Source: Oenococcus kitaharae DSM 17330
GTDB lineage: Bacteria > Bacillota > Bacilli > Lactobacillales > Lactobacillaceae
NCBI RefSeq assembly: GCF_000241055.1
Contig: NZ_CM001398.1
Coordinates: 1,537,163-1,601,162 of the forward strand
DNA: 64,000 nucleotides
Direction: 5' to 3'
The notes below the pieces were generated by a model. That model did no database searches, was not told the DNA's origin, and saw only the letters and a program-made list of their open reading frames with translations. This document shows, one piece after another, positions 21,471 through 46,012 of the stretch. Within the stretch, counting starts at the first letter, position 1; each line of letters opens with the position of its first letter. The position numbers and the translations under genes were made by a program.

Positions 21471-21490
21471 TACTTACTATTTGATAGTAA
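21471..21490 (-). promoter_or_regulatory. TACTTACT dyad operator, site A
   Basis: TACTTACTATTTGATAGTAA contains inverted TTACTAT/ATAGTAA arms overlapping the probable -10 region of the minus-strand oxidoreductase gene. It shares the exact 8-mer TACTTACT with sites at 37812, 39128 and 45997. The position suggests a repressor site. Confidence 0.55.
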
Positions 21491-21595
21491 ATCATTCACA
21501 TATAAAAGTAAATTAGATTTTGATAGAAATTTCAAAAATACGATAAAGCTTCACTTCTCATTCACAAGTGTGCTGACGATATGCTGCATAATTAA

Positions 21596-22300
21596 ATGGT
21601 GCAGCAATTAACAGACGCAATTCTAAGAAAATACAAAAAAAATTGGGAAAAGTTTTTTGTGGTGACATTGACCGGCTCCGTATCGGTCGGCAAATCGACT
21701 ATTTCCAAACAATTGGCCCAATCATTAGAGAGAAGTTTTCCAGGTTTGACTGTGTCGATTATGTCAGTCGATTCATTTATTTATCCAAATCGCGTTTTAC
21801 AAGAACGTGGGATTTTCAATCAGAAAGGTTTTCCAGAAAGTTACGATTTACAGGCTCTTTCGACTAAAATTACCGACCTGCGTGCCGGACAAGACCAGAT
21901 CGAAATCCCTTTGTACAGGCAGGAAATTAACGATATTGACGCTTCTCAGACTGTCATTGTAAAGCGGCCTAAGATTTTAATCGTAGAAGGCGTGACAGCC
22001 TTGCGGCTTAAGAACGCTGATTATGCCATTTATATCGATGCTGACGAAAAAGACATTTATCAGTGGTTTTTAAAACGGACTTTGGCCTTTATCCGGGAAA
22101 ATCGGCAAATTCCGGGAAGTTTTTACTACACCCTTTCAAAAAAACCTGTCACAGAAATTATGTCCTTGATTCAAAAAACATGGATCCAGACAAATCTGAA
22201 AAATCTTAAAACTTATATTGAGCCTCAAAAATCCAAGACTGATGCCATAATTCATAAAAAGCAGAATCATGAAATTGATCGGATTACATTTCAAAAATAG
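21596..22300 (+). CDS. coaA: Pantothenate kinase, type I, short form
   Basis: This phosphorylates pantothenate, the first step of coenzyme A synthesis. The P-loop GSVSVGKST is near residue 27, and MSVDSFIYPN, LQERGIFNQKGFPESYD and the GVTAL segment match CoaA. At 234 residues it is shorter than the usual 305-315: the region before the P-loop is about 60 residues shorter than in typical CoaA. There is no ribosome site, and a CATAAT element sits 3 bases before the ATG, so it may be leaderless. It pairs with the downstream coaBC in the same pathway. Confidence 0.88.
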   Translation: MVQQLTDAILRKYKKNWEKFFVVTLTGSVSVGKSTISKQLAQSLERSFPGLTVSIMSVDSFIYPNRVLQERGIFNQKGFPESYDLQALSTKITDLRAGQDQIEIPLYRQEINDIDASQTVIVKRPKILIVEGVTALRLKNADYAIYIDADEKDIYQWFLKRTLAFIRENRQIPGSFYYTLSKKPVTEIMSLIQKTWIQTNLKNLKTYIEPQKSKTDAIIHKKQNHEIDRITFQK

Positions 22301-22351
22301 TGCTATTTTAAGCCGCGTATAATTGAAAATAGGATCAATAAAGGAAAGCCA

Positions 22352-23548
22352 ATGTTCCAAAATAAACATATTTTATTAATTGTCAGCGGCAGTGTCGCAG
22401 CCTATAAATCTGCCTATTTTTTGAGATTGCTGATAAAACAAGGTGCTCAAGTACACGTGTCTATGACAGCTGCAGCAGAAAAATTTGTTAGTCCGCTGAC
22501 TTTTGCAACATTAAGCCGTTTTCCGGTGCTCACTGATATTTTTCAAGCAGAAGATGGCAGCGTGCCGCATATCGAATGGGCACAGTGGGCCGATTATATT
22601 TTCGTCCTCCCGGCCAGTGCTGATATTATCGCCAAAATTGCTAACGGCATCGCTGACGACACAGCCTCAACGATCATATTAGCCAGTCAAGCTAAGAAAA
22701 TCGTCGCGCCGGCTATGAACGACCAGATGTGGGATAACCCTGCTACGGTCCGCAATATCCAACAACTGAAAAGAGATGGCATTCTCATCATCGATCCGGC
22801 TGATGGTTTCTTGGCTGAAGGATACGAAGCAAAAGGTCGTTTGCCCGAACCCGAGGATATCTTAGAACAAGCACAAATGCGTCTTTTGGCAGAACACGGC
22901 TCCCTGCATGGCAAAAATATCCTCATCACTGCTGGCGGCACACGAGAAGCCATCGATCCGGTCCGTTATATCAGCAACCGGTCATCAGGCAAAATGGGCT
23001 ACGCGCTGGCACAAGCGGCCGCTGAAGCTGGTGCTAAAGTCACGCTGATTGCAACTCAAATCCGTCATCTGCCTTATTCAGTATCTTTGATTAAGGTAGA
23101 AAGTGCCCAAGAGATGCTGCAAGCAGTCCAAGACCAGTTCCCCCAACAAGATATTTTCATTTCGGCCGCAGCTGTTTCTGATTATCGAATTGTTCATCCT
23201 GCCAAAGAAAAAATTAAAAAAACAGGCAAAAATGACCTAACACTTGTTTTGCAGCAGAATCCCGATATCTTAGCCGATGCTGGTTCGCACAAAACAGGTC
23301 ATCAATTCGTTGTCGGTTTTGCGGCGGAAACACAGAATTTGGCTGTTTATGCACAAGAAAAGCTCGTCAAAAAACATGCTGATATGATTATCGCAAATGA
23401 TGTCTCAAGTACAGCGTCTGGGTTTAACAGCGATCAAAATCAAGTCACAATTTTTCAAAACAAAAAAACAGCCATTACCCTGCCCTTGCAAGACAAGCAA
23501 AAACTAGCTCGCGGCATTATGACTGAAATTTCAAATAGTATCCAATAA
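22352..23548 (+). CDS. coaBC: Phosphopantothenoylcysteine decarboxylase / phosphopantothenate-cysteine ligase
   Basis: This bifunctional enzyme of 398 residues covers the second and third CoA steps. The N-terminal CoaC flavoprotein domain (to about residue 180) has GSVAAYK and the APAMNDQMW substrate motif. The C-terminal CoaB domain starts near residue 188 with ITAGGTREAIDPVRYISNRS and ends with the FAAET and IIANDV segments. AAAGGAAAG precedes the ATG, and a separate TATAAT lies 30 bases upstream. A terminator with CTTTTTTT follows the stop. Confidence 0.96.
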   Translation: MFQNKHILLIVSGSVAAYKSAYFLRLLIKQGAQVHVSMTAAAEKFVSPLTFATLSRFPVLTDIFQAEDGSVPHIEWAQWADYIFVLPASADIIAKIANGIADDTASTIILASQAKKIVAPAMNDQMWDNPATVRNIQQLKRDGILIIDPADGFLAEGYEAKGRLPEPEDILEQAQMRLLAEHGSLHGKNILITAGGTREAIDPVRYISNRSSGKMGYALAQAAAEAGAKVTLIATQIRHLPYSVSLIKVESAQEMLQAVQDQFPQQDIFISAAAVSDYRIVHPAKEKIKKTGKNDLTLVLQQNPDILADAGSHKTGHQFVVGFAAETQNLAVYAQEKLVKKHADMIIANDVSSTASGFNSDQNQVTIFQNKKTAITLPLQDKQKLARGIMTEISNSIQ

Positions 23549-23572
23549 GCGGTTTATTCCCGCCTTTTTTTG
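23549..23572 (+). terminator. Terminator of coaBC
   Basis: A GCGG/CCGC stem with a 7-base loop is followed by a run of seven T. It overlaps the last codons of the convergent surface-protein gene. Confidence 0.5.
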
Positions 23573-24537
23573 ATTTTTGTATGAACATAAATAGCAGCAA
23601 ACACAGCAACCATCACTGCAACTGTTTCTAAAATGGTTTGAAATATTTGTCCGACAATTGATAATTGCCCTTTTTTATGCTGATTTGTCAACAACAAAGT
23701 TGGCGCGGTCGAGCTGACAGAGGTTGTATTACCCAAAGATAACTGCGAGCTCTGTAAAGCCGAGGATGCTGCAGCTGACCTAGATTGGCTTTTTTTAGAA
23801 GTTGAGGTAGAACTACTTTGCTTTTTAGCTGGATTCGGCTGTGAACTAGCAGCTGTGCTGCTGTTAATTTTTGCATAGACAAAGACAACCACCCGTCCCT
23901 GCTGACTCAACTGACCGCTCATCTGTCCTTTGACTTCACGTAAATAGTAGCCATCAATATTTCTTCTAACCGCCGTATAACTGTCACCAATCTGTCCCTG
24001 AATCAAACTGCTTTGAGAAATGTTTCGGCCCTTATCGTCGACATATTGAACTGTCACCGGCGCAGCTGCAGCGGCTTGACTATCGAAAGACAAATTAAAT
24101 AGAAGACTAAATGGCCCACTGAAACCATCAATTTTGATCGGTAATGATACGCCTCCCTGATAACCGCTTCCCGATTCACTAAAGGCGTAGTTCCGGTCGG
24201 ACAAATCTTTATAAGATACTGAATTTGGATTATTCAAAGTAAAATCAATCTGAGTGCCGTCATCTGAGGGCTTAGCTGTGTAAGATATTCTCGGGTTAGC
24301 AAATCCAGTCAGAAGGCTAGTGGAAGACCAATTTTGATCCAGACTGGGAATGCCCAAATTCGCGGTCGAAATTTGAAAATGGCGATAGTTGTTTGGGTTC
24401 AGATGTAAAGCAGCCTGCGAACGCCAAATAGTTGCTGGGGCAATCTCAACGGAATGAAATCCTTTTAGTGAGGCAAATTGTAGACCATCGGGAAAAATGA
24501 GTCGTAAATCATGGCTCAAGACTAAGGTTGTCTTGCT
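23554..24537 (-). pseudogene. MucBP-domain surface protein, 3' part after an in-frame stop
   Basis: This part encodes about 328 codons: a beta-rich region, one MucBP-like repeat (VTVQYVDDKGRNI through YYLREVKGQ), a Ser/Thr/Gln-rich linker and a C-terminal membrane helix with a KIKKRRE tail. No LPxTG sorting motif is present. The only possible separate start is a TTG at 24519 with no ribosome site. It is in the same reading frame as the upstream fragment and continuous with it apart from the TAA at 24538-24540. It is therefore best read as the second half of one broken gene. Confidence 0.75.
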
Positions 24538-25104
24538 TTAGAAATCGTTAGCCGTACCAAACCATTTTGACCAAGAAAATGAGGCAGGCTTGTTGTTCCA
24601 TAAGGTTTCATTATTTTTATCAGCTAATACTTCAATACGAATGGATCTAAAATATTCCAGCCCGGCCGTGCTCGTGATTTGCAGAAACTGATCAGTTGTA
24701 ATCGTAATATCAGCCTGCAAACAATCTGCCACGGTAATTAATTCAATCGGTTTCCCAATTTTCTTGGCAACAATATCTCGCAGAACGGGATCCGGAAGGA
24801 GATTTACGATCGGCGTGTTTTGGTCAATCGATGAATCAGCCTGACCCGGAGCTGGAGTCTGCGGTGCTAATGGTGCAGAGGGCGCAGACGGCCTTATGCT
24901 GCCTGTAGATTCAGCTTGTATAGATTTTGCTGGTAAAAATAGATTGTTTAAGAAAAAAATCAGCAGGAAAAATAAAATCCATCGAAGAAGATTTTCATAG
25001 TTAAATTTCCCTTGTCTAGTTGTGCGTGCTTTTACCCAAATCATGGCCAACTCGAAATCAAGTGAGATACGATTATCATTCATTCTAGCAAAAAAGGATT
25101 TCAA
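24538..25104 (-). pseudogene. Surface protein, 5' part with signal peptide, ended by premature TAA
   Basis: 188 codons encode a long N-terminal region, a hydrophobic signal segment at about residues 40-58 with a likely cut after SIQA, and a Pro/Ala-rich stretch. A cap-like segment follows (LPDPVLRDIVAKKIGKP, VADCLQADITIT, GLEYF) like those that precede leucine-rich repeats in lactobacillar MucBP proteins. The frame closes with TAA at 24538-24540 and then runs open in the same frame for another 327 codons. A nonsense mutation in a 516-codon gene explains this most simply; secretion of a short product is the alternative. Confidence 0.75.
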
Positions 25105-25122
25105 ACAATTTACAGCATTATT

Positions 25123-25914
25123 TTAGCGTGTAATAAACAACAGCAGAATTATCAGCAGCCAGGCAGCCATAACAACTGTATCCACCTGCCGCCAATGCAT
25201 AACGCGAAAACGCGTACGATGCCGGCCATCTGTGTAACCTCGCATAATCATCGCGGCCGCAAGGTCTTCGGCACGTTTGACACTATTTAAAAATAGTGGT
25301 GCCATGACAGGAACATACATTTTCATACGATGCAGCAGAGATCCACGATTGAAAACTGCCCCTCTGGATTTTTGCGCATCCAAAATACTGGAGAATGTGG
25401 CAATCATTGTCGGCACGAAACGCAAAGCAATCGAGAGGGTCAGTGTGATATCATCGATTGGCAATTTGAAAACTTTCAAGGGCGACAGGAAAAAAGCCAA
25501 AGTATCGCTAATGGCAATTGGTGAGGTTGTCAATAAGAACACAGTCATCGCAACCAGCGCCGTTAAAAAACGGAGAAAGAAAATCACGCCGGTTTGAAGG
25601 CCCATCTGCGTCAGGTACAAAAATCCCCAACTAAAAATAACTTGCCCGCCAGGGCTGAAAAACAGCTGAAGAACAGCCGTTAAAAAAATCATAAAAACAA
25701 AAAAACGAATGCCGCGAAGGAAAAAGCCCAAATTTAGTTTGGCTAATCTAACCGACAACAGGCTAATAAACAAAAAAAGAAGCAGCCAAAAGCAAGATTT
25801 CGTAAGAAGGCTCGATGCAATTATTAGCAAGACAGAAATCAGCTTATTTCGCGCATCGAGATCGTGAATGAAAGATTTGCCAGGCATAAATTGGCCAAAA
25901 ATAAAATCAGGCAT
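25123..25914 (-). CDS. ecfT: Energy-coupling factor transporter transmembrane protein EcfT
   Basis: This is the membrane scaffold of the ECF vitamin importer that links the two ATPases to exchangeable substrate-binding subunits. It has about six helices and the two coupling-helix motifs, here AQKSRGA near residue 181 and AMIMRGY near residue 222. The length of 263 residues is normal. The ATG overlaps the end of ecfA2 by 8 bases. Confidence 0.94.
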   Translation of the reverse strand: MPDFIFGQFMPGKSFIHDLDARNKLISVLLIIASSLLTKSCFWLLLFLFISLLSVRLAKLNLGFFLRGIRFFVFMIFLTAVLQLFFSPGGQVIFSWGFLYLTQMGLQTGVIFFLRFLTALVAMTVFLLTTSPIAISDTLAFFLSPLKVFKLPIDDITLTLSIALRFVPTMIATFSSILDAQKSRGAVFNRGSLLHRMKMYVPVMAPLFLNSVKRAEDLAAAMIMRGYTDGRHRTRFRVMHWRQVDTVVMAAWLLIILLLFITR

Positions 25915-26797
25915 TCGGCATTGTTTCCTTTCCTAATGGTTCTTCTGATAGTGCTTGCTGCAAAAATGAAATCAGTTCTTTTTCACTAATGGGCAATTTC
26001 TGATTCTTATATCCTGTTTTCGCGGTGAATCTGCTTGCAAATGCGGTCACTTTCGGCAGGGCTAGAATTTTTTGAAAAACAAGCCCTTTTTCCTGAAACA
26101 TGTCCTTGGGAGATGCCTGCTTGACTAATTTTCCCTGCTGCATCAGCAAAATTTGATCCGCGAATTCCGCTGCTGCATCCATGTCATGCGTTGCCATTAA
26201 AATCGTTAAATGCTCATCCTGCTGCAGTTTCTTAAATAATGTCATCACACGTTTTGTTGTCGAAGGATCCAGGCCTGCAGTCGGTTCATCTAAAAGCAGG
26301 ATTTGCGGTTCTGTCGCCAAGACACCAGCCAAAGCCGCTAAACGCTGCTGGCCGCCAGACAAATTGATTGGTGGTTGATTGGCCAGCGTCATATCAAAAC
26401 CAAGCATGTTCAGCGTTTCTTTAGCAGTCTGCTCAGCCGACGACTTTGTCTGGCCGAAGTTTTCCGGTCCAAAAGCAACATCTTCCAGCACAGTCGGGGC
26501 AAACAATTGTGTTTCCGGAAATTGAAACAAAAAACCCACGCGTTTTCTCAGATCAGCCAGATCTTTTTCCGATGTTCTGGCATTAATAGCCTGATCGCCG
26601 ACTAGTACTTGGCCGCTGCTAGGCTTTAATAAACCGTTAATATGTTTTAAAAGCGTTGTCTTACCGCTTCCTGTCTGTCCGATCAAAGCTGTAAAAGAGC
26701 CGTCCGTCAGACGAAAACTGACATTTTTCAATAGCTGAAAAGCATTCGGCGTTTTCGATTGATAGCTGTAATTCACTTCTTTGAATACAATTGCCAT
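25907..26797 (-). CDS. ecfA2: Energy-coupling factor ATPase EcfA2
   Basis: This is the second ATPase of the ECF module. Walker A is GQTGSGKTTL near residue 40, the signature is LSGGQQRL, and Walker B is followed by DEPTAGLDP; the Q-loop lies in LFQFPETQLF, typical of EcfA. The start overlaps the ecfA1 stop region by 25 bases, implying coupled translation. The 296 residues include the normal C-terminal extension. Confidence 0.95.
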   Translation of the reverse strand: MAIVFKEVNYSYQSKTPNAFQLLKNVSFRLTDGSFTALIGQTGSGKTTLLKHINGLLKPSSGQVLVGDQAINARTSEKDLADLRKRVGFLFQFPETQLFAPTVLEDVAFGPENFGQTKSSAEQTAKETLNMLGFDMTLANQPPINLSGGQQRLAALAGVLATEPQILLLDEPTAGLDPSTTKRVMTLFKKLQQDEHLTILMATHDMDAAAEFADQILLMQQGKLVKQASPKDMFQEKGLVFQKILALPKVTAFASRFTAKTGYKNQKLPISEKELISFLQQALSEEPLGKETMPNA

Positions 26798-27618
26798 AAT
26801 TGATCTATCAACTCCTCTTCGCTTAAATAGCCAGATGGCAACGCAATCGATAATGTCAGCAGGTCACGCTGGACAATACGGCTCAGCGGCAGTTCAATAC
26901 CAAATCCAGCTAAAGCCTGATCTTGAACTAGAATTTGCGACGGCCTGCCTTGTAAAGCGATGCTGCCATGATCCATTACGAGAATTTGATCAGCCAAAAA
27001 TGTCTCTTCAATATCATGTGTCACAGACAGGATGGTCATGCCAAAATGATTTTGAAGCTGTTTGACTAAAGCCAGCAAGGACTGTCTTCCTATTGGATCA
27101 ATCATACTGGTTGCCTCATCTAAGATAATCAGGTCAGACTGTAAAGCCAGCACGCCGGCCAAAGCAACACGCTGTTTTTGTCCTCCGGATAAACGCGCCG
27201 GTTCCCAGTCGTAAAAATCCTGCATCCCCACATTTTCTAAAGCCTCTTTGACTCTTTGCTCCATATGGTCACGGCTTAAACCTAAATTTTCCAAACCAAA
27301 AGCAACATCATCAGCGACAGTCGGTCCGACAAACTGATTATCGGGGTTTTGAAAAACGAGGCCGATATGCGAACGTATCTCGTCAACAGTATCCTCACTC
27401 AAAACCCGGCCAAACAGCCTAATCGCATCTTGTGATTGATTTTCTAATAAGCCAGTTAACAGTTTGATTAAAGTGGACTTCCCGCTGCCGTTTCGACCAA
27501 TAATTGTGGTCCAACTGCCCTTTTGAATAGACAGGCTGAGATGGTCTAAGGTCGTGTTGTCCTGCTGCTGGGCGTAGTGGAATGATAAATCTTTTATTTT
27601 GATCAGAGCGTCGGCCAA
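26773..27618 (-). CDS. ecfA1: Energy-coupling factor ATPase EcfA1
   Basis: This is the first ATPase of the ECF module, with Walker A GRNGSGKSTL near residue 39, Q-loop FQNPDNQFVG, signature LSGGQKQR and Walker B LIILDEATSMIDP. The length is 281 residues. It is the first ATPase gene after the PanT-like substrate subunit, 27 bases downstream, and both are read from the same strand. Confidence 0.95.
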   Translation of the reverse strand: MADALIKIKDLSFHYAQQQDNTTLDHLSLSIQKGSWTTIIGRNGSGKSTLIKLLTGLLENQSQDAIRLFGRVLSEDTVDEIRSHIGLVFQNPDNQFVGPTVADDVAFGLENLGLSRDHMEQRVKEALENVGMQDFYDWEPARLSGGQKQRVALAGVLALQSDLIILDEATSMIDPIGRQSLLALVKQLQNHFGMTILSVTHDIEETFLADQILVMDHGSIALQGRPSQILVQDQALAGFGIELPLSRIVQRDLLTLSIALPSGYLSEEELIDQLWQLYSKK

Positions 27619-27645
27619 TCCTGTCCTCCTACTTTTAAAACGGCT

Positions 27646-28245
27646 TTAATCAGCCTTGCGAATATAGTTATAAAGCGGCAATGCAATCACTGGCGTCACG
27701 ATGGCAGCTAAAATAGCTTCTGGGATGCCGTTAGTGCCGATGACGGTCAGCAACAGTCCGCCAATCAATGAAGGATTAGCCACACCATATGCACTCGCGA
27801 CCTCCGGCGTGCGGTAAAACAAATAAATCATGCCCAAAACAAGCACCGTGTTGGTCAAGGCCCCTGCTAATCCAGCCAGCATCATGGCAAAGGCTTTTTT
27901 AACCCGGATCTTGGTCAAGAAAATAAATAAATAAGCAGCCGCAACTGCAATCAGGATTCTTGGCAGAATTGCGATCAAGGGATTTGTGAAAATCAGCGGT
28001 TCAACCGGACTGGTCGGTGCAGTGAAAGCGCGGATTAACGAAAGCAGTCCCCAGACAGCACCTAAAATGCCGCCAGGCAAGGGCCCTAGAACGATTGCAG
28101 CAATAATGACCGTGATGTGAATGGTTGTCAAGCTTAATGGCCCGATCGGAATATAGCCGAACAAAGGAACAAAATTTTGAATCAGAATAAAGGCGATAAA
28201 CAATGCCAAAATAGCTAGTTTAAAAGCTCTGGTCTTTCTAATCAT
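27646..28245 (-). CDS. ECF transporter substrate-specificity subunit, PanT-like
   Basis: This 199-residue membrane protein has six hydrophobic helices and the segment IPIGPLSLTTIHITVIIAA, typical of the ECF S-component group that includes pantothenate-specific PanT. It is a membrane vitamin-binding subunit that docks on EcfT. Linkage to coaA and coaBC favours pantothenate as substrate, but the assignment is inference, and other small vitamins are possible. GAGGAG precedes the ATG. The leader holds a GCATG/CATGC hairpin just before the ribosome site. Confidence 0.75.
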   Translation of the reverse strand: MIRKTRAFKLAILALFIAFILIQNFVPLFGYIPIGPLSLTTIHITVIIAAIVLGPLPGGILGAVWGLLSLIRAFTAPTSPVEPLIFTNPLIAILPRILIAVAAAYLFIFLTKIRVKKAFAMMLAGLAGALTNTVLVLGMIYLFYRTPEVASAYGVANPSLIGGLLLTVIGTNGIPEAILAAIVTPVIALPLYNYIRKAD

Positions 28246-28508
28246 CTGGATACTCCTCTAGCATGGCTTTTTTATCATGCAGCCGCCTTGCTGCCAGTCT
28301 TGATGATCAAAAAGATCTTAAAAACCGGTCAATCATTATCATACAATATCCGAGATAGGCAAAACAGGTCTAGCAGACTCACAAGCAGCTGTCAAATAAA
28401 ATGATTCAGGCTGTGCACCTTAATTCATGTTTATTCAACGCTGCTCAATTTTTGATTGTCATATTTTCAGACTATACTAGTGGCGAAAGAAAAAAATGGA
28501 GGGAAATC

Positions 28509-29567: not shown

Positions 29568-29572
29568 GGGCC

Positions 29573-32432: not shown

Positions 32433-32810
32433 TTGCTGAGAAACAGTATCATTGTTTTAATTTGTGCATTTGTTGCGGGTGCTTTAAGGGAATTACTGGA
32501 ATTATCTTTTCAAAGCCCTTTCCATTGGATCACAATAATCATCAATTTGGCCGGTGCCTTTCTAATGGGTATGACCTATGAATACGTTAGGATTGCCAAG
32601 AAAAACGCTGCGAATTTTTCATTAATCGCTGGTACAGGCCTGATTGGCAGCTTCACCACTTTTTCGACTTTTATTTCAGAGATTTATGCCTTGGCCGCTC
32701 GTCAGCAATTTTTGTCAGCGGTGATTTACTTGGCAGTATCAACATTTTTTGGCATTCTTCTACTGGTTAGCGGCAAAAAAATTGTCCAGGTCGTGAAACA
32801 TGCTGATTAA
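32433..32810 (+). CDS. crcB1: Fluoride channel subunit FluC (CrcB) 1
   Basis: This 125-residue protein has four membrane helices and the FluC motifs GALRELLE, NLAGAFLMG and GLIGSFTTFSTF. FluC dimers let fluoride leave the cytoplasm. The start is a TTG after GGGGGAAG. It overlaps the second subunit by 11 bases, and lactic acid bacteria commonly encode such pairs as heterodimers. Confidence 0.94.
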   Translation: MLRNSIIVLICAFVAGALRELLELSFQSPFHWITIIINLAGAFLMGMTYEYVRIAKKNAANFSLIAGTGLIGSFTTFSTFISEIYALAARQQFLSAVIYLAVSTFFGILLLVSGKKIVQVVKHAD

Positions 32811-33162
32811 ACTAACCTTAATTTCAGCTTTAGGTACTGCCCTTGGCGGCGAAGCTAGATACTTGATTTCGCGCTATCCGCGCTTTGATCGCCTGTTCGG
32901 CTTTTCACTGGCAACGATTCTGATCAATATTATCGGCTCTTTTCTGCTGGCAATTGTATTAAATAGTCCCCTTGCTCTGACTTGGCGAACTTTTTTTGGC
33001 AGTGGTATTATCGGTGGATTGACGACTTTTTCAACCTTTATTTTAGAAACAATCAATTTATCGTCTAGACAAACAGGTCAGAAATCTCTGTTGTACTTCG
33101 CCGCTTCCTTATTCTTGTCCCTAGCAGCTTTCGCCTTGGGCGTCTGGCTGATAGGACAATAA
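32800..33162 (+). CDS. crcB2: Fluoride channel subunit FluC (CrcB) 2
   Basis: This second subunit of 120 residues has GGEARYLIS, NIIGSFLLA and GIIGGLTTFSTF, the same motif order as its partner. It begins inside the end of crcB1, which suggests coupled translation and a heterodimeric channel. Confidence 0.94.
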   Translation: MLIKLTLISALGTALGGEARYLISRYPRFDRLFGFSLATILINIIGSFLLAIVLNSPLALTWRTFFGSGIIGGLTTFSTFILETINLSSRQTGQKSLLYFAASLFLSLAAFALGVWLIGQ

Positions 33163-37659: not shown

Positions 37660-37811
37660 AGAAATAAACCCGCTTTCTCATCAAATAAATTATTGTTCAA
37701 TGATTAACATCTTAGTGCATCGAATAAGAAAATCCAACCCATTTCTCGATGCTATCTGAAAATGATGGCAAATAATGGATCATTGGAATAGTAAATAAGT
37801 ATTTTGGTTGC

Positions 37812-37827
37812 TATACTAAAGTAAGTA
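37812..37827 (+). promoter_or_regulatory. TACTTACT dyad operator, site B
   Basis: TATACTAAAGTAAGTA (reverse complement begins TACTTACT) overlaps the TATACT -10 of the next gene and its start point, which is a repressor position. Confidence 0.5.
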
Positions 37828-37842
37828 AAAAGGAGATTAAAA

Positions 37843-38496
37843 ATGAAATTAACAGTAATTGGTGCAACTGGCATGGCCGGATCAGCAATCGTCTTAGAAG
37901 CCGCTAGACGAGGCCATGACGTCACTGCGATTGCACGGTCGGCAGAAAAATTAGCTGATTTAAAGGCGAAGGTGCCAACCGCTCAAACTTTGATCAAAGA
38001 CGCCTTTGCCCTGACCAAAGATGATCTATCAAACAGCGATGTCGTGATCGATGCCTTTGCCAGCAGTCCGAAAACAGCTTATCTGCACGTTGATTTAGCG
38101 GCCAAATTGGTTGCCCTTTTTCGCCAAAGCAGCCAGCCGCGTTTATTCTTTATTTTGGGCGCGGGCAGCCTGCACATTGGCGAAGACCATCATCTGGCTG
38201 TCAAAGATATGGAAAAAGATCCGCAAAACGATTCTTTTATTTCAGTACCACAAAACCAATTGAAGGAGCTGCAATTTTTGCAAAACGTCGATGATGTTAA
38301 TTGGGTTGCCGTATCCCCTGCCGCCTCATTTCACACCGGTGCTGCGACAACTATATTAAAAGGCAAAGATGACCTGCTGTTTAATCAAACTGGCCAATCC
38401 GAAACTTCGTCAGGAACCATGGCCAAGGCAATTTTGGATGAAATTGAACAGGAAAATTATCATCAAACACGTTTTACAATTGCTGATGGTGATTAA
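37843..38496 (+). CDS. NAD(P)-binding atypical short-chain dehydrogenase
   Basis: This 217-residue Rossmann protein begins with IGATGMAGSAIV, the atypical SDR dinucleotide loop, and the NmrA/YwnB-like continuation AARRGHDVTAIARS. It probably senses or reduces with NAD(P)H; the substrate is unknown. AAGGAG precedes the ATG. It shares the promoter dyad with the convergent FMN reductase gene. Confidence 0.85.
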   Translation: MKLTVIGATGMAGSAIVLEAARRGHDVTAIARSAEKLADLKAKVPTAQTLIKDAFALTKDDLSNSDVVIDAFASSPKTAYLHVDLAAKLVALFRQSSQPRLFFILGAGSLHIGEDHHLAVKDMEKDPQNDSFISVPQNQLKELQFLQNVDDVNWVAVSPAASFHTGAATTILKGKDDLLFNQTGQSETSSGTMAKAILDEIEQENYHQTRFTIADGD

Positions 38497-38501
38497 AAAT
38501 A

Positions 38502-38535: not shown

Positions 38536-38557
38536 TTATATGAAGAGCAAACAGCTA

Positions 38558-39112
38558 TTACGAAAACCGTTTTACTAAATCTACAAAAGTATTGATAGCG
38601 GTTTGCAAAAATGCAGTTGTACCGGGGTTAATAATTTTAAGGTTATCATCCAAAAGATCGCGCACCTTCCCTATATATACCTCAGGCTGAGCTACTACCG
38701 GCATGTTCAAAAAGACCAGGGACTGCCGTAAATGATGGTTGGCACCAAATCCAGAAATGTTGCCAGGAGAGACGCTGATAATCAAAGCAGGTTTGCCATT
38801 CCAGATACTTTGCCCGACTGGCCGAGAGCCTACATCTAAAGCATTCTTTAGTGCAGCCGGCATGGAGCGATTATATTCTGGTGTTGCAAAAATCACTGCA
38901 TCAATGTCAGCCATTTGCTTTCGAAACCGCTGCCAGCTCTCCGGAACCTGATTCTCATCGTCAAAATCTTGATTATAGAGTGCTAGATCCGAAATTTTCA
39001 TATCGACGAGTTCAAAACCCTTAGGCAATAAGGCAGCTGCTTGTGTGCCAACGGCTCGTGTATAAGATTTTTTCCTTAAACTGCCAACAATTAAGGCAAT
39101 TTTTTTAGTCAT
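38558..39112 (-). CDS. NADPH-dependent FMN reductase / quinone reductase
   Basis: This 184-residue flavodoxin-like protein has the FMN-binding GSLRKKSYTR loop near residue 10 and the TPEYNRSMPAALKNALD motif near residue 78, typical of the YieF/azoreductase group. It likely reduces quinones or flavins with NADPH. Its promoter (TTGATT, 17 bases, TATATT) is followed at once by the TACTTACT dyad, consistent with induction by quinone or electrophile stress. Confidence 0.9.
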   Translation of the reverse strand: MTKKIALIVGSLRKKSYTRAVGTQAAALLPKGFELVDMKISDLALYNQDFDDENQVPESWQRFRKQMADIDAVIFATPEYNRSMPAALKNALDVGSRPVGQSIWNGKPALIISVSPGNISGFGANHHLRQSLVFLNMPVVAQPEVYIGKVRDLLDDNLKIINPGTTAFLQTAINTFVDLVKRFS

Positions 39113-39127
39113 GATACTTTTTTGATC

Positions 39128-39146
39128 TACTTACTTTTTGTAAGTT
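39128..39146 (-). promoter_or_regulatory. TACTTACT dyad operator, site C
   Basis: TACTTACTTTTTGTAAGTT has inverted arms ACTTAC and GTAAGT. It lies at about +1 to +20 of the FMN reductase promoter. Confidence 0.6.
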
Positions 39147-39193
39147 AAATATAACGCTAAAAAATATGTAAATCAAGCAGCAAAAATCGCTTT

Positions 39194-40096
39194 TTATAAA
39201 GAATGATGATGATGGAGATAAATAATCAACGCGACCATTAAAATAACGGTGACAATTAACGAAATCAACCATGCAAGCGACCCTGCAGCCAGCGGCAAAT
39301 GCATATTCATACCATAGAAACCGCTCACGATTGGCGGAATAGCGAGTAACAAAGACCAAACCGTCAAAAAACGCATAATGGCATTCAGGTCATTATTAAT
39401 CAAGCGATCATAGGCATCACTTAACTGTTCAACATTTTCGGATATCAAATCGATTAATCTAGTTGACTGGCGAACTGCAAGATTGAGTTTCCTAAGTTTA
39501 CGTGCGGCGGTCGTCTGAACTTCGACATGTGCATCCTTGAAAAACGCATGAATTTGAGAAAAACAATCAGCATTCTCTTTGACTGCAGACCGGAGAAAAA
39601 CCACGCTCCGGTTCACTCTTGTCAGATTTTCAAAATTTCTGCTATTACGGTGGGAACTCAAATGTGTCTGAATATGTTCCGTTCGCTCGAACAAATTCGA
39701 GATGATATCCAAATATTTATTTAGTGTCAGCTGCAAAAGATCCAACAAAAAATTGACACGGTCGCCTTCTGACTGTTCTAACAAATCCATGATGGTATCA
39801 TGAATAAAAATCATTTTTGAATTAAGGAATACAAACATCTGCTGTTTGTGAAAAATGACAGAAATAGGTTCGGAATGTGATCTTTCACTAATTGGTACCC
39901 AAAAAACAATCACGGTATCCTCTAGGGAGTCGTCGCTTTCAATTCGTGCTGGGCCATTTTTATCATCGACATACTCAAGCAGCAGCGGATCAATCTGGAA
40001 TTGTTTTTCGAGCAGGTCCCTATCAGCCTTAGCATAATCTTCGACCAAAATGAGATCGAAACGGCGGCTGCTGTCTGATGCATATTTCTTCAACAA
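39194..40096 (-). CDS. CorA-family magnesium transporter
   Basis: This is a divalent-cation channel of about 300 residues: a cytoplasmic domain with long helices (residues about 100-230), then two C-terminal membrane helices. The YGMNMHLPLA loop holds the GMN selectivity motif. The start is uncertain. A TTG at 40096 has AGGAG 11 bases before it and gives a family-like N-terminus. An ATG at 40198 lacks a ribosome site, and a TAATAT promoter box lies between the two. A histidine-rich tail (HHHH) ends the protein. Confidence 0.88.
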   Translation of the reverse strand: MLKKYASDSSRRFDLILVEDYAKADRDLLEKQFQIDPLLLEYVDDKNGPARIESDDSLEDTVIVFWVPISERSHSEPISVIFHKQQMFVFLNSKMIFIHDTIMDLLEQSEGDRVNFLLDLLQLTLNKYLDIISNLFERTEHIQTHLSSHRNSRNFENLTRVNRSVVFLRSAVKENADCFSQIHAFFKDAHVEVQTTAARKLRKLNLAVRQSTRLIDLISENVEQLSDAYDRLINNDLNAIMRFLTVWSLLLAIPPIVSGFYGMNMHLPLAAGSLAWLISLIVTVILMVALIIYLHHHHSL

Positions 40097-40244
40097 AGTC
40101 CGGGCTTCTCCTATTGCTGTGATTAGTCGCGCAAATATAAATTTGTTCCTGGAAGCGCTTAATATTAGTTTAACCCTTAGTTGATAAAATGAGGTCATCG
40201 GTAAAAAACCGGTATAAATATGATCATTTCCAAGGAGGAACAGC

Positions 40245-40442
40245 ATGTCCGTTAAGGAAGATAAAGCGAATTCACTCAAGGAACACAATCACAAGCAGGC
40301 ACCTGAGGCAGAAGAGAAGGAAGCTCAAGACCAATTAAAACTCGCTAAAGGAAAAAGCGATCAGCTGCTAAGCCAAGCCGAAAAAAAGCTCTATGCTTTA
40401 AAAGATGCTGCTAAAGATAAAATCAGCGAAATAAATAAATAA
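40245..40442 (+). CDS. Small charged helical protein, weakly CsbD-like
   Basis: This 65-residue protein is rich in Lys, Glu, Asp and Ala with no hydrophobic core, suggesting a long amphipathic helix. AAGGAGG precedes the ATG, so it is clearly a gene. It resembles small stress proteins of the CsbD kind in composition only. The promoter is shared with the divergent corA. Confidence 0.75.
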   Translation: MSVKEDKANSLKEHNHKQAPEAEEKEAQDQLKLAKGKSDQLLSQAEKKLYALKDAAKDKISEINK

Positions 40443-40484
40443 AAAACCTGCAATTGGGGATTCCTCAAAATACAGGTTTTTTAT
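40443..40484. terminator. Terminator between convergent genes
   Basis: AAAACCTG and CAGGTTTT form the stem, with T runs on either strand. Confidence 0.75.
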
Positions 40485-41377
40485 TTTATATAACGATTCA
40501 GCGAAGTCACGATATCAGTCGCGACCTGCTGCTGATAAGCTGGGCTCTTGATATAAGAAAAATCAAAATCGCTATCCATGAATCCCATTTCAATCAAGAC
40601 AGCTGGTCGCCGATTATCCCGCAAGACTTGAAAGTTGCCGTAGGAAATTCCGCGATCATATAATGACAAGTTATGAAAACCCTGATCGAGAATAGCTGCC
40701 AGCTGGTCGGCATTATGATGATATTTAAAGACCTCATAGCCATAAGCTAAATTGCGCTGCCCTGCAGAATTAAAATGAAAGCTGATAAACAAGGTTGCCT
40801 TGACACGATTAGACATCGCCGGCCGTGCCGCCAAACTAACCGACTTATCACTGTGCCTCGTCATCAGCACGCGCGCATGCTGAGTTTTTAGCAGCCGATA
40901 GGTTTTTAGGGCTGTCGGCAGCGTATAACTTTTTTCCATTGCACCGTCAGGTGCCAAGGTGCCAGAATCAGTACCGCCGTGGCCAGGATCCAGTACAATT
41001 GTGCTTTCAGCTAAACGGCTGCTCCTGGCCGCATCGTAACTCTGATCTTTTAAAAGCCAGGCCGCCACCCAGCCTTTACTCGAAGCTGATTGGACATAAT
41101 ACCAGTCGGTTTGCTGATTACGCTTAAGAACAGTCACTCGTTTGCCTCTAACTATACGGCGAATAATACGCGACCGTGGTGATGGCGAAGCACACAAATT
41201 AACCGAACTTGCCTGGACAGTTAATTGCGAGGCCCGATGCAGCAGATAAAATGATCCCGCGGCTAGTAAAATCAGCAGAACAAAAATAATAATCAACCTT
41301 CGACGTCTTTTTTGGACCGACAAATGGTTGATGAATTTTTTTTGCTGCCAAATATTCAAACTGCGGCCGCCAAACAA
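40481..41377 (-). CDS. N-acetylmuramoyl-L-alanine amidase (Amidase_3) with SH3 domain
   Basis: This is a peptidoglycan hydrolase exported through an N-terminal membrane helix (about residues 28-48). A bacterial SH3 domain covers about residues 55-110, then comes the zinc amidase domain with LDPGHGGTDSG, the FHFNSA motif and IEMGFMDS carrying the catalytic Glu. The start is uncertain: the TTG at 41377 overlaps the regulator gene by 22 bases, and no ribosome site is visible. Co-transcription with the upstream Fur-family gene looks likely. Confidence 0.9.
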   Translation of the reverse strand: MFGGRSLNIWQQKKFINHLSVQKRRRRLIIIFVLLILLAAGSFYLLHRASQLTVQASSVNLCASPSPRSRIIRRIVRGKRVTVLKRNQQTDWYYVQSASSKGWVAAWLLKDQSYDAARSSRLAESTIVLDPGHGGTDSGTLAPDGAMEKSYTLPTALKTYRLLKTQHARVLMTRHSDKSVSLAARPAMSNRVKATLFISFHFNSAGQRNLAYGYEVFKYHHNADQLAAILDQGFHNLSLYDRGISYGNFQVLRDNRRPAVLIEMGFMDSDFDFSYIKSPAYQQQVATDIVTSLNRYIK

Positions 41378-41796
41378 TCAGCACAGACACCAAAAAGTTC
41401 AAAATCCGTTGAATTAATTTCACAGTCAGGAATTTGTTTTTGGAAATCTGTTAAATCCGGTCGTTTTAATTCAATCACACGGCGGCATTTTTCACAGATA
41501 AAGTGGCAGTGTTTCAGATTCTTAAAATCACATTGGTATTTCACACAAAGACCATTTTTAAAATTACGTGTCTCAAGCACTGAAATCTTTTCGAGTTCCT
41601 GAACATTTCGATAAACCGTTTCATAACTCATATGCTTATAAGTCTGGCGCAGAAAAAGGTCAATCTCCTTGATTGGCAGATAATAATCCTGTCGATCCGC
41701 TAAATATTGCAGCATATCGCTTCTTTGATTTGTAATTTTCAGGCCATTTTTTTTCATGACCTCAAGTGCTTCGCCGATACCAGCTGTTTTTATCAT
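41356..41796 (-). CDS. Fur-family regulator, probably Zur
   Basis: This 146-residue protein has a winged helix (about residues 15-80) and a dimer domain with two CxxC pairs, CEKC and CADC, that form the structural zinc site of Fur proteins. The HCHF segment lies before the first. Being beside a zinc importer, it is probably a zinc-sensing Zur; iron or peroxide sensing is the alternative. AGAAGG precedes the ATG. Confidence 0.85.
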   Translation of the reverse strand: MIKTAGIGEALEVMKKNGLKITNQRSDMLQYLADRQDYYLPIKEIDLFLRQTYKHMSYETVYRNVQELEKISVLETRNFKNGLCVKYQCDFKNLKHCHFICEKCRRVIELKRPDLTDFQKQIPDCEINSTDFELFGVCADCLAAAV

Positions 41797-41820
41797 GCTT
41801 ATATACCTTCTAAAACCATC

Positions 41821-41830
41821 TGACTAGTCA
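41821..41830 (-). promoter_or_regulatory. Palindrome upstream of the Fur-family gene
   Basis: TGACTAGTCA is a perfect 10-base palindrome 25 bases before the start codon. It could be an autoregulatory site, but it is short. Confidence 0.3.
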
Positions 41831-41884
41831 AAATGGCCTTCTTTTAAAACAATAGCATAGCTTTCTATAGGAAACACAATTGTT

Positions 41885-42682
41885 CTACTTTCGTGCTTTG
41901 ATGGATTTCACAAATAAACTGGCTAAATAGAAGAAAGTCTCGATCGCTGCAATGAAAAATGTGACCGGCCAATTAGTTTCATATGCCAGATACAGGCCAA
42001 GCCAAGTACCGATCAAAGAAAGGCCGATGCTGATAAAAATCATAGCTGAAACAGACCGGGCATAAAACTGTGCTGTATATGCCGGTAATGTCAGCAAAAT
42101 AAAAATCAGCAAGGCCCCAACAATTTGTGAAGCAACACTTACGCTTAACGCCATCATCACAATGAAAATGATATTAATATAATTATTTTTTCTATCTGTG
42201 ATTTGATAACCAATCTGATCAAAAGAATCAAATTTCAAACGTCGATAAATCAACATCGTCAGAATCATGACAATCATAGAAACCACAATGATTTGAATCA
42301 CGTTGCCAAAACTGATTCCGACGATACTACCGAACAAAATACTCGTCGTATAAGAAGCGTTTTTGCTGGAAAAAGAAAGAAATAAGACACCCAAGCCCAT
42401 AAATAAAGCCGAAACGGAGCTGGTCGCTGCATCTCTTCTCTGCTGATTAACACCAATGCGGCTGGCTAAAATCGAGCTCAGAAAAGTGAATAAAATCATC
42501 GACTGAAAAGGCGCCCACCCGATCCAGACACCAAAAGCTGCACCGGAAAAACCGATTTCAGAAAGCGTGTGAGCAAGAAAAGATAATTTTCTAGCAACCA
42601 CGAAAACACCGACAATGCCGCATAAGATCGCGACAACAGTTCCCGCTTCATAGGCATGCTGCATAAAATCTAACGATAACAT
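41885..42682 (-). CDS. Zinc/manganese ABC transporter permease (AdcB/ZnuB-like)
   Basis: This 265-residue membrane protein has eight or nine helices of the ABC-3 family, with the coupling segment SFLAHTLSEIGFSGAAFGV. It forms the channel of the metal importer encoded with the ATPase and binding protein upstream. AGGAG precedes the ATG. Confidence 0.92.
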   Translation of the reverse strand: MLSLDFMQHAYEAGTVVAILCGIVGVFVVARKLSFLAHTLSEIGFSGAAFGVWIGWAPFQSMILFTFLSSILASRIGVNQQRRDAATSSVSALFMGLGVLFLSFSSKNASYTTSILFGSIVGISFGNVIQIIVVSMIVMILTMLIYRRLKFDSFDQIGYQITDRKNNYINIIFIVMMALSVSVASQIVGALLIFILLTLPAYTAQFYARSVSAMIFISIGLSLIGTWLGLYLAYETNWPVTFFIAAIETFFYLASLFVKSIKARK

Positions 42683-42693
42683 GGGTTCTCCTT

Positions 42694-43377
42694 TCAGTTT
42701 TCAGCCAAATCGGCTACTTTACCATATTTAAATTTGCCGGGAAACAATTCCAGATAATGTTTCCCATACTTTTTGACCAGTGGCCAATCATGAGAGATGA
42801 AAATAATTGTGGTTTGATTTTCTCGATTTAATTTAGCTACCAGATCCAAGACATCGTATTTAGACTGCTGGTCAAGGCTTGCAGTTGATTCATCTAAAAT
42901 CAAAAGTTTAGGCTGGTTTAGGATCGCTTGTGCTAAATATGCACGTTGCTTTTCGCCGCCGGATGCCTTGCCCATAATTTGTTTTCGCTTCTGCCAAAGA
43001 TTGGTCTTTTCAAGTGCCTGGCGTACCTGCAGGCGTTCGGAACGGCTTAGCCAAGGCCTGAGAGAATGGCTTAGCTTCAGTGCGACGAAATTTTCGATTG
43101 AGAGCGGGTAATTTTCTTCAATGTTGCGAAACTGCGGGACATAACCGATATCGTTTTTTGTCATCATCTCAGGATTAAGCCAAATTTTACCATCGCTAGG
43201 GGTTAAGAGGCCTAACAACAGGTATATGAGGGTTGTCTTGCCGGTACCGTTAGATCCTAACAGACAAAAAAAATCCCCCTTTTGAATATCCAAGTTCAGA
43301 TGTTCATAAAGGACACGATTTTTAAAAGTCATTTTCAGATCAACAAAAGAAATAATTGCTTGTGCTGCTTCTGTCAA
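42694..43377 (-). CDS. Zinc/manganese ABC transporter ATPase (AdcC/ZnuC-like)
   Basis: This 227-residue ATPase has Walker A GSNGTGKTTL, signature ASGGEKQR and Walker B LLILDESTASLD. The start is a TTG preceded by AAGGAG. It lies between the binding-protein and permease genes, the usual order. Confidence 0.93.
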   Translation of the reverse strand: MTEAAQAIISFVDLKMTFKNRVLYEHLNLDIQKGDFFCLLGSNGTGKTTLIYLLLGLLTPSDGKIWLNPEMMTKNDIGYVPQFRNIEENYPLSIENFVALKLSHSLRPWLSRSERLQVRQALEKTNLWQKRKQIMGKASGGEKQRAYLAQAILNQPKLLILDESTASLDQQSKYDVLDLVAKLNRENQTTIIFISHDWPLVKKYGKHYLELFPGKFKYGKVADLAEN

Positions 43378-43416
43378 ATGTTTTTCTCCTTAATTAGAAA
43401 AGGTTCTAATCATAAA

Positions 43417-44331
43417 TTACTTAGCTTGATTTTGAATCCGACCTACTTGATTATACTGGCTGAGCATCCATTGTTTGTAAGTCTTGCCTTTTGGTTTTGT
43501 TTCGGTCACTTTCAGAACCGGTACCTGATACTTTTTTGCTAATTTAACCAGATTACCGACAGTTTTATCAGTAGCCTGCGTATTTTGAACAAAAAAGGCA
43601 ATTTTCCGCTCGCGGATATCCTGCTGCATGTTGGCAACATCCTTAGGTGCAGGATCTGTGCCATCTTCAACCGACTTAGCAAATCCAGTGTTGTTTTCCT
43701 TATATCCGAGGCTTGCAAGTGCATAGTCAAACACGGGTTCACTGACATCAACTAATTTTCCGTTGCTTTTTTTACTTAAAGAAGCAATTTTACGGTTAAT
43801 CGGCCGAATGTTCTTTTGAATATACTTTTTAGCATTTGCTTTGAAATAAGCTTTTTCACTTGGCTTCAAAGCTGCAAAATGTTTTGCCAGATAATTGGCA
43901 ACTTTCGGCATTGTTTTGCGGTTGTACCAAAGATGCGGGTTGTCGCCGTTTTTGCGGTCCATAATATTTTCACCCACACGAATAGCTAAAGCACGCTTGT
44001 TATTCTGAGCTAATTTTGACATCCAGCTGTCATATCCGATACCATTGTAGAGAAGCACGTCAGCAGCGTCAGCCTGCTTAGCAACATTAGTTGTTGGCTG
44101 ATAATCATGCGGATCAATGCTGGTCTTTTTGATCACGTTTTCAACGGTTCCTTGATTGCCTAAGACCGCTTTAGCAACCTCACCATAGAAATCCACTGAT
44201 GAGAGCACTTTGATTTTGCCTTTGACCTCTTTTGCACTAGCTGCCTGCTGGTTGCCAAACGCGCAAAACAGGCTTAGCGACGCGATTAAAGCCGCGATTA
44301 ACAAGCAGCCCTTTTTAAAACTCTTAACCAT
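43417..44331 (-). CDS. Zinc-binding protein of the metal ABC importer (AdcA/ZnuA-like)
   Basis: This metal receptor of 304 residues belongs to SBP family 9, with DPHDYQPT near residue 73, NPHLWYN near residue 130 and the EPVFDYAL segment near residue 199. Only a short or no His-rich loop is visible, which leaves Zn versus Mn open; the Fur-family neighbour suggests Zn. The signal peptide contains one Cys (LSLFCAFG), but Phe at -1 is a poor lipobox. GGAGGG precedes the ATG. Confidence 0.92.
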   Translation of the reverse strand: MVKSFKKGCLLIAALIASLSLFCAFGNQQAASAKEVKGKIKVLSSVDFYGEVAKAVLGNQGTVENVIKKTSIDPHDYQPTTNVAKQADAADVLLYNGIGYDSWMSKLAQNNKRALAIRVGENIMDRKNGDNPHLWYNRKTMPKVANYLAKHFAALKPSEKAYFKANAKKYIQKNIRPINRKIASLSKKSNGKLVDVSEPVFDYALASLGYKENNTGFAKSVEDGTDPAPKDVANMQQDIRERKIAFFVQNTQATDKTVGNLVKLAKKYQVPVLKVTETKPKGKTYKQWMLSQYNQVGRIQNQAK

Positions 44332-44355
44332 ATTCCCTCCAATTCCTTGTTTAAA

Positions 44356-44370
44356 TAGTAAATATTACTA
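44356..44370 (-). promoter_or_regulatory. Operator-like dyad upstream of adcA
   Basis: TAGTAAATATTACTA is a perfect inverted repeat (6-base arms, 3-base spacer) 25 bases before the start codon of the metal-binding protein gene. It is a likely metal-regulator site. Confidence 0.5.
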
Positions 44371-44496
44371 ATAAATCCTAACATACAAATCTATCAAAAT
44401 ATGTTCGAAATAGTAATTTTTTCTCTTTTCTGTCGAATTTTCGGCCAAAAACGCTCACTATTAACTTATTTCACAAAGATTTTGGCAGGCTGCACG

Positions 44497-44520
44497 AAAA
44501 ACCGCCATAACCAGGCGGTT
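44497..44520 (-). terminator. Terminator of the FAD oxidase gene
   Basis: AACCGCC and GGCGGTT form the stem, with T residues following on the minus strand. It overlaps the stop codon region. Confidence 0.75.
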
Positions 44521-45917
44521 TAATTAATTTTTCTTTTTGGATTCAAAATACCCATGGGATCAAAAAGATTTTTCAGCTGGTGCTGAATCACATCGACGTC
44601 ATCACCCAGTTCTTCGTTGGTCCATAGGTTTTTTGACATGCCAACCGCGTGCTCACCGGAAATTGTCCCGCCCAGCGCCAAGGTCTTATAAAATAAGCGG
44701 CGGATGCCTTCAATCACGGTGTCTGGCGGTGTTGGCTGACCGTCCCAAAGCAAGCTTGGATGCAGATTGCCATCCCCAGCATGTCCGGCCGTGTAAATAT
44801 CTAACGATAAGTCTTTGGCCGTCTGATCAATAAAATCCGTCATCACGGCTAATTGTGATAAAGGCACAGCCATGTCTTCCATGATGTGATACTTCGTATT
44901 GGCAAAAACAGCCGGCAGCATGTCCTGACGCAGTTTGACCAATTGTGCTGCTTTAACTGGATCATCAGTGACCGTAATATTCCAAGCCTGATGTTCCTTT
45001 AAAATTTTTTCAGAAACTTGGAGTTGCGTGTTGCTGGCACCATCGAAACCGAAAATCAGCATGGCTGAACTGGCCGTTTTGGCAAAATGACTGTGTTCGT
45101 ATTGGTCCAAAGCCTGAACTGTTTTTCCGTCTAAAGCTTCCAGCATTGTCGGATACAGGCCGGACATCCGTAAGGCCTGAACACCCTTGGCCAGTTTGGT
45201 CATATCATCAAAGAAAGCAATGCCGCGGATCGTCTTGCCATAAGGGATTGGAAACAATTTAACCGTCACTTCTGTAATAATGCCAAAAGTACCTTCGGAA
45301 CCGACAAAAAGCTGCGTTAAGTCATAACCAAAAGCTTGTTTCAACGTCCGGCCGCCAAGTTTGATTTCATGGCCGTTTGCCAGCATCACTTTCAAACCTA
45401 GCACTGAATCTTTAGTCGCCCCGTAACGTGCCCCGCTAAGGCCGCCAGCATTCGTCGAAGCATTGCCGCCGATCGAAGATAATGGCTTAGAGGCTGGATC
45501 CGGCGCATAAAACAAGCCTTGTTTGCGGGCAGCTGTATCCAAATCCTGATTAATCACGCCAGGCTCGACGACAGCTAATCCGTCGCCTTGGCTGATCTCA
45601 ATAATATGATTCAGCTTGGCAACTGAGAGAATAATTCCACCATTAACGCCGTCAGCACCAATCACAGTACTGGTATCAGCACCTTGAGCGACAATCGGTA
45701 AATGGAATTTCATGGCGGTTTTTAAAACGCCGCGGATGTCATCTTTGTCGCCGACGACCACATAAGCGAAAATTTTGCCGTCAATCTGGTCTTGCGCCCG
45801 CCCATTAGCCGTGTGTTCCTCAGCTGGCCGATCGCCGATATGAATTTCGGCATGAGGCGCAGACCGTTTCAAATAATCAAGCATTTCCTGATTGCTGTAA
45901 GCTGTAAAAACTGCCAT
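44520..45917 (-). CDS. FAD-linked oxidase, GlcD/D-lactate dehydrogenase type
   Basis: This 465-residue flavoprotein has an FAD-binding PCMH domain (VVAQGADTS-type loop; SIGGNASTNAGGLSGARYG near residue 150) and a C-terminal FAD-oxidase domain ending with HAGDGNLHPSLL and SGEHAVGMSKN. It oxidises a 2-hydroxy acid such as glycolate or D-lactate; the acceptor is unknown. AAAGGA precedes the ATG. The promoter TTGACA-17-TAAAAC is followed by the shared TACTTACT dyad. Confidence 0.9.
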   Translation of the reverse strand: MAVFTAYSNQEMLDYLKRSAPHAEIHIGDRPAEEHTANGRAQDQIDGKIFAYVVVGDKDDIRGVLKTAMKFHLPIVAQGADTSTVIGADGVNGGIILSVAKLNHIIEISQGDGLAVVEPGVINQDLDTAARKQGLFYAPDPASKPLSSIGGNASTNAGGLSGARYGATKDSVLGLKVMLANGHEIKLGGRTLKQAFGYDLTQLFVGSEGTFGIITEVTVKLFPIPYGKTIRGIAFFDDMTKLAKGVQALRMSGLYPTMLEALDGKTVQALDQYEHSHFAKTASSAMLIFGFDGASNTQLQVSEKILKEHQAWNITVTDDPVKAAQLVKLRQDMLPAVFANTKYHIMEDMAVPLSQLAVMTDFIDQTAKDLSLDIYTAGHAGDGNLHPSLLWDGQPTPPDTVIEGIRRLFYKTLALGGTISGEHAVGMSKNLWTNEELGDDVDVIQHQLKNLFDPMGILNPKRKIN

Positions 45918-45996
45918 TTTAAGATCCTTTCAAGATGAATTGCTGCATTTTTTTAGTCCGTTTGAAATGGTGTTTTTAAAAAAACATGCAACCATT

Positions 45997-46012
45997 TACT
46001 TACTAAAAGTAA
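45997..46012 (-). promoter_or_regulatory. TACTTACT dyad operator, site D
   Basis: TACTTACTAAAAGTAA has arms TTACT and AGTAA. It lies some 15-30 bases downstream of the probable -10 of the FAD oxidase gene. Confidence 0.6.

Follow-up and report, generated by a model that had tools for sequence, protein, structure and literature searches.

Redox genes and palindromic sites in the window

We analysed a 64,000-nucleotide stretch of the Oenococcus kitaharae DSM 17330 genome (NZ_CM001398.1, positions 1,537,163 to 1,601,162; hereafter the window), in which a short palindrome, a candidate operator, lies in front of several oxidoreductase genes. A first-pass annotation had described four copies of the 8-mer TACTTACT, each followed by an inverted AGTA half-site and each at the promoter of a different oxidoreductase gene, and had suggested that an HxlR/DUF24 repressor controls them as a redox regulon. 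The four copies are present: they lie at 21471, 37820 (minus strand), 39128 and 45997, against an expectation of 0.92, and a count of four did not arise in any of 100 shuffles. The AGTA partner follows within 8 bases at three of the copies, but with three different spacings (7, 2 and 3 bases), and it is absent from the copy at 39128 before the FMN reductase. The whole genome (1.84 Mb, two contigs) contains 21 copies of TACTTACT, many of them inside open reading frames (ORFs); five of the 21 reached a score of at least 17 with the operator matrix described below, and the 8-mer was rejected as the motif. Alignment of the sites by symmetry gave ACTTAC-N5-GTAAGT, a palindrome that describes them better than TACTTACT plus AGTA, and exactly three sites in the window match it at 10 or more of 12 positions.

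The perfect match (12/12), site 3, is ACTTACAAAAAGTAAGT at 39129-39145 on the minus strand. It is a predicted operator two bases past the -10 of a gene for an NAD(P)H-dependent FMN reductase-family protein (184 aa; 38558-39112, minus strand; Pfam FMN_red, 9e-42). The putative -35, TTGATT (39171-39176), and -10, TATATT (39148-39153), both match consensus and are separated by a 17-base spacer on the same strand. Site 4, TGTTACTTTTAGTAAGT (45998-46014, minus strand; 10/12), is the predicted operator of a GlcD-like FAD-linked oxidase (465 aa; 44520-45917, minus strand; Pfam FAD_binding_4 and FAD-oxidase_C, with TIGR00387 below cut-off). Its putative -35, TTGACA (46046-46051, minus strand), matches consensus and, across a 17-base spacer, its putative -10, TAAAAC (46023-46028, minus strand), does so weakly. 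Both promoters had been read in this form by the first-pass annotation.

Site 1, ACTATCAAATAGTAAGT (21472-21488, minus strand; 10/12), is the predicted operator of an NADP oxidoreductase of the F420_oxidored family (191 aa; 20873-21448, minus strand; Pfam F420_oxidored). The YodB operator is TACT-N7-AGTA and the candidate Oenococcus operator ACTTAC-N5-GTAAGT; site 1 additionally contains the former, and the latter is the conserved element. In the sister genome G029, whose counterparts of the window proteins are 90-95% identical, site 1 was retained and the FAD-oxidase operator matched at 9 of 12 positions. The fourth place, site 2 (GCTATACTAAAGTAAGT, 37810-37826, plus strand), consists of a GTAAGT half-site only, adjoining a TATACT hexamer, and lies before a gene for an NAD(P)-binding protein (NAD_binding_10 by Pfam, 217 aa; 37843-38496, plus strand).

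Scores were obtained with a symmetric operator matrix built from 55 distinct sites, all outside Oenococcus. Sites 3, 4 and 1 were the top three in the window (27.2, 21.5 and 20.1), and the next place scored 6.8. The maxima of 30 shuffled windows averaged 11.5, and the highest was 17.6. Site 2 ranked only twelfth in the window, with 5.3 bits, and was not taken to be an operator; membership of the NAD(P)-binding-protein gene in the regulon, as first proposed, is not supported.

Distribution of the palindrome within and across genomes

Ranking in the genome itself took in the 38 places with no more than two mismatches. The eight best of these (27.2 to 17.5) precede the genes for the FMN reductase, a luciferase-like monooxygenase (LLM), HxlR, the FAD oxidase, the NADP oxidoreductase, a second thioredoxin, TrxA and TrxB. 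The trxB assignment is by TIGR01292, above cut-off, and the second thioredoxin was recognised only after the 38 places had been scored. The second thioredoxin is arranged like hxlR, with a TAAAAT hexamer, GTAAGT and the ATG; at trxA the operator occupies the spacer from TTGCAT to TACAAT. The ninth place (13.2, C1:400441) has no adjoining redox gene, and the tenth (13.1) lies 5' of a gene for a glutathione-reductase-like protein. The intragenic match at C1:271867 was rejected as an operator (matrix score 0.3).

For the upstream regions of hxlR homologues we used 73 regions, 66 from Lactobacillaceae and 7 from elsewhere, with six core-Oenococcus loci excluded. K-mer enrichment in hxlR upstream regions was swamped by other conserved words, and a search for inverted repeats, with no motif given in advance, was therefore chosen. 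ACTT-N9-AAGT ranked first in this search (13 versus 0.55 in shuffles, in which the most frequent dyad of any kind reached 12). With 5-base halves, ACTTA-N7-TAAGT was first (7 versus 0; shuffle maximum 5), and CTTAC-N5-GTAAG was found 4 times versus 0.03. Further dyads were also prominent: GAAA-N9-TTTC (13 versus 0.65) and AAGG-N13-CCTT (7 versus 0.25). The window motif itself, at 10 or more of 12 positions, was seen upstream of 16 of the 73 homologues (shuffled mean 0.87, largest 3).

Orthologous promoters were scored for the same level of match to ACTTAC-N5-GTAAGT. The promoters covered were those of 50 of 53 FMN-reductase, 30 of 44 LLM and 30 of 48 thioredoxin matches, and of the best 30 loci each for the FAD oxidase and the NAD(P)-binding protein. 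FMN-reductase orthologues had a site in 16 of the first 30 (shuffled 0.3) and 10 of the next 20, or 26 of 50. The site was present in 29 of 30 LLM promoters (TIGR03858, above cut-off; shuffled 0.2) and in 13 of 30 thioredoxin promoters (shuffled 0.4), three of the latter from another family of the order. No site was found at the thioredoxin promoter of an incomplete Oenococcus genome (G123), nor at any of the four thioredoxin promoters of the HxlR-less genomes G001, G003, G006 and G008. As a control we searched 146 upstream regions (ORFs of at least 150 aa at 60 FAD-oxidase and NAD(P)-binding loci): the site occurred in 14, and all 14 sit at the query gene, the FMN reductase or a divergent neighbour. 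In genus g25 (L178, L179, L183, L184) the putative FAD-oxidase operator, similar to ACTAACAATTTGTAAGG, overlaps the ribosome-binding site and is common to a divergent membrane-protein-like gene.

In sister species, sites were seen before trxB (G121 and G065), before a nitroreductase gene (G121 and G095), 5' of a glyoxalase/dioxygenase-superfamily gene (G123), and 5' of an ADH_N gene and hxlR (G122); the remaining sister-species sites on the same list were intragenic or 5' of unrelated genes. Two sister species (G121 and G095) carry a perfect ACTTAC-N5-GTAAGT with a G+C-rich spacer about 40 bases 5' of luxS (L078 and L080, position 1501). G122, a 68% complete genome of the same genus, has 13 places with no more than one mismatch versus 2 for the reversed pattern, and eight of these are not within larger ORFs, which suggests an enlarged regulon in that genome. 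In G065 (C1:1051548-1053034) the NAD(P)-binding-protein and FMN-reductase genes are divergent with operator-like sites between them; in the window they are convergent neighbours.

The HxlR protein and its co-occurrence with the operator

The first-pass annotation had found no HxlR regulator in the window. This holds: the sole HxlR match in the genome lies at C1:1496899-1497168, and the window begins 40 kb later, at C1:1537163. The protein has 102 residues (PF01638, 66.9 bits; cut-off 20.8) and has the same sequence as HxlR of O. kitaharae CRBO2176. Its gene is flanked by an rRNA-methyltransferase-like gene on one side and, on the other, by a gene that we take from its sequence to be pheS-like. 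YodB and QsrR are the nearest solved structures by sequence. The modelled protein (pLDDT 91.2) has a winged-helix fold, and its best matches in the PDB are again QsrR and YodB (TM-score 0.7-0.9), with QsrR the best.

The palindrome GCTTATAATATGTAAGT lies immediately 5' of the hxlR ATG and overlaps a -10-like TATAAT, and the hxlR message may therefore be leaderless. From this placement at its own promoter, hxlR is predicted to be autoregulated. At both hxlR (L022:1810-1826) and the second thioredoxin (L030:1501-1517) GTAAGT abuts the ATG, a -10-like hexamer lies just upstream and there is no ribosome-binding site, so that leaderless messages are possible for both genes. An operon of hxlR with the FMN reductase was considered and rejected: no query gene turned up at the 79 hxlR loci tested, of which many span just 2 kb or so.

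Matches to HxlR were found in 112 of the 121 Lactobacillaceae genomes searched, in some solely to distant paralogues. An orthologue was scored on the best match per genome, as present at E <1e-17 and as absent if there was no match or the best E was >1e-10. By this measure, 26 of the 38 genomes that have an HxlR orthologue carried the FMN-reductase operator, against 0 of the 12 that lack one (Fisher p = 2.2e-5). Genomes of one genus are not independent, and the genus-level comparison is therefore the safer one: 11 of 14 genera with HxlR had the operator versus 0 of 3 without (p = 0.029).

A candidate HxlR redox regulon and competing explanations

These results suggest, with a probability of about 0.8, that sites 3, 4 and 1 serve as operators for the only HxlR/DUF24 winged-helix protein of the genome and belong to a small and widely conserved redox-stress regulon. 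The proposal of the first-pass annotation is thus well supported at these three sites, by the hxlR operators in other genera, the orthologous promoters, the co-occurrence and the thioredoxin sites, but not at site 2. The sites, their conservation, their placement at promoters including that of hxlR, the co-occurrence with HxlR and the target list are all direct observations. By analogy with the family, transcription in unstressed cells would be blocked by an HxlR dimer bound to ACTTAC-N5-GTAAGT at the -10 or next to it; the position of the operator over or beside the -10 fits repression by obstruction of RNA polymerase. On exposure to oxidants or electrophiles HxlR would leave the operator, which would induce the flavin reductase, the FAD oxidase, the NADP oxidoreductase, the LLM, two thioredoxins, thioredoxin reductase and HxlR itself. 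HxlR is likewise the inferred binder of these sites, as opposed to a co-distributed protein.

Several observations weigh against this reading. The bare palindrome is not enriched in the genome, where it has 38 places versus 87 for the reversed pattern with up to two mismatches and six versus six with up to one; other evidence was therefore needed. The comparison of genes with promoters that the first-pass annotation had proposed gave a divided answer, since many weak matches are intragenic but the eight top-scoring places are not. The training sites of the matrix were chosen by match to a motif first seen in this genome, which makes the matrix test not fully independent. Conservation was poor at FAD-oxidase promoters (6 of 30 with a site, four in one genus) and at NADP-oxidoreductase promoters (4 of 23, two being the genome itself and its sister), and the genus-level co-occurrence depends on three HxlR-less genera. 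Published expression data, of which we draw on parts of each report, are mixed. Those from O. oeni do not show simple co-regulation: SO2 raised trxA3 and a quinone oxidoreductase and lowered trxA2 (PMC8510247), and under wine-like stress the trxB transcript rose and two trxA transcripts fell (PMC5044463). Elsewhere, hxlR of Lactobacillus acetotolerans was up at both times after ethanol and trxA at the later one (PMC5453994), and trxABD of L. reuteri was up after HOCl (PMC6722424). The last adverse point is the cysteine by which HxlR/DUF24 regulators, according to passages of two reports, sense at the N-terminus (PMC7835342, PMC6943732): it is missing from Oenococcus HxlR (G000, G029, G121, G095, G065, O. 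oeni L069 and G122).

The same N-terminal cysteine is present in all 66 Lactobacillaceae homologues from outside Oenococcus, and in G123 a cysteine lies three residues further along. As it lacks this residue, Oenococcus HxlR was filed as an HxlR-family regulator and not as a YodB-type thiol sensor. Cys47 was found in all 67 homologues aligned (these 66 and that of G122), and also in the Oenococcus proteins that lack the N-terminal cysteine. None of the 7 homologues from outside Lactobacillaceae has it, and the residue at this position is isoleucine in YodB and QsrR. In the model Cys47 lies two residues before helix 49-61, which homology marks as the recognition helix. For Oenococcus three readings are considered: the switch is Cys47 (or Cys69/70), sensing is thiol-free, or the start codon or the protein is differently used. 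We tentatively raise the possibility, on balance not the expected one, that Oenococcus lost the N-terminal cysteine and kept the regulon while sensing moved to Cys47, at the face that binds DNA, which would make this residue a relocated thiol switch governing the thioredoxin system itself.

Since all the evidence is correlative, and a regulator acting on hxlR would leave identical sites, another transcription factor of the same distribution might bind the palindrome, with hxlR merely one of its targets. We regard this as unlikely: the palindrome stands at hxlR in many genera, the FMN-reductase operator was absent from all 12 HxlR-less genomes compared, and the target classes (quinone/flavin reductase, nitroreductase and dioxygenase-type) are those of the HxlR-family proteins YodB and QsrR. 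It is highly improbable that the four TACTTACT copies are a functionless chance cluster. The 8-mer is often intragenic among its genomic copies and the palindrome is unenriched, but the matrix derived from other genera places three of the four copies well above the shuffles, and one of the copies is conserved in 11 genera at the promoters of orthologues.

The remaining alternative, that site 2 too functions as an operator, through its half-site or with a different spacing, is doubtful, if less so than the two just discussed. TATACTAANGTAAG is retained there in G000, G029, G121 and G095, ACTAACTAAAAATTAGT stands before the NAD(P)-binding-protein gene of G065, which is there divergent from the FMN reductase, and L255 has ACTGACTAAAAGTAAGG. 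Against these stand the low matrix score and the promoters of the orthologues, of which 1 of 30 had a site at 10 or more of 12 positions (0.3 expected) and 7 of 30 at 9 or more (2.85 expected).

The predicted HxlR regulon resembles that of YodB in Bacillus subtilis (azoR1, yodC; parts of PMC6943732 and PMC6798810) in regulator family, fold, and flavin/azo-reductase and nitroreductase-type targets. Unlike YodB, Oenococcus HxlR has no N-terminal cysteine, and its predicted targets add thioredoxins, TrxB and the LLM. QsrR of Staphylococcus aureus, the best structural match, has the same HxlR/DUF24 fold, but it senses by Cys5, which Oenococcus HxlR lacks. QsrR/YodB targets include quinone reductases, a nitroreductase and dioxygenases, and QsrR targets also an FMN-linked monooxygenase; the QsrR target list, as given in part of the same source, holds no thioredoxin genes (PMC6798810). 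Predicted targets of this type here are the FMN reductase and, in G121 and G095, the nitroreductase.

The regulator class itself is not new, and Table 2 of Ravcheev 2013 (PMC3616900) already names a predicted 'HxlR' regulon, mosaic and confined to Lactobacillaceae, with O. oeni PSU-1 among the genomes. That regulon enters our comparison by name, its members and motif being in a supplementary file. In L. plantarum, the part of PMC2174512 consulted gives LexA and another motif for the peroxide set and no motif for the trxB1-overexpression set, and two network papers (PMC10949432, PMC10886434) do not mention HxlR. Our literature search, which most subscription papers lay beyond, found no report of the operator, the target set or the cysteine change. 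The present analysis gives lactic acid bacteria, among them the wine bacterium's genus, a defined operator, a target list and one candidate regulator for both the flavin reductases and the thioredoxin system. It also makes testable how a redox regulon can operate under an HxlR that lacks the cysteine normally used for sensing.

Elsewhere in the window, two neighbouring CrcB-family genes (32433-33162, plus strand) probably encode a two-subunit fluoride exporter.

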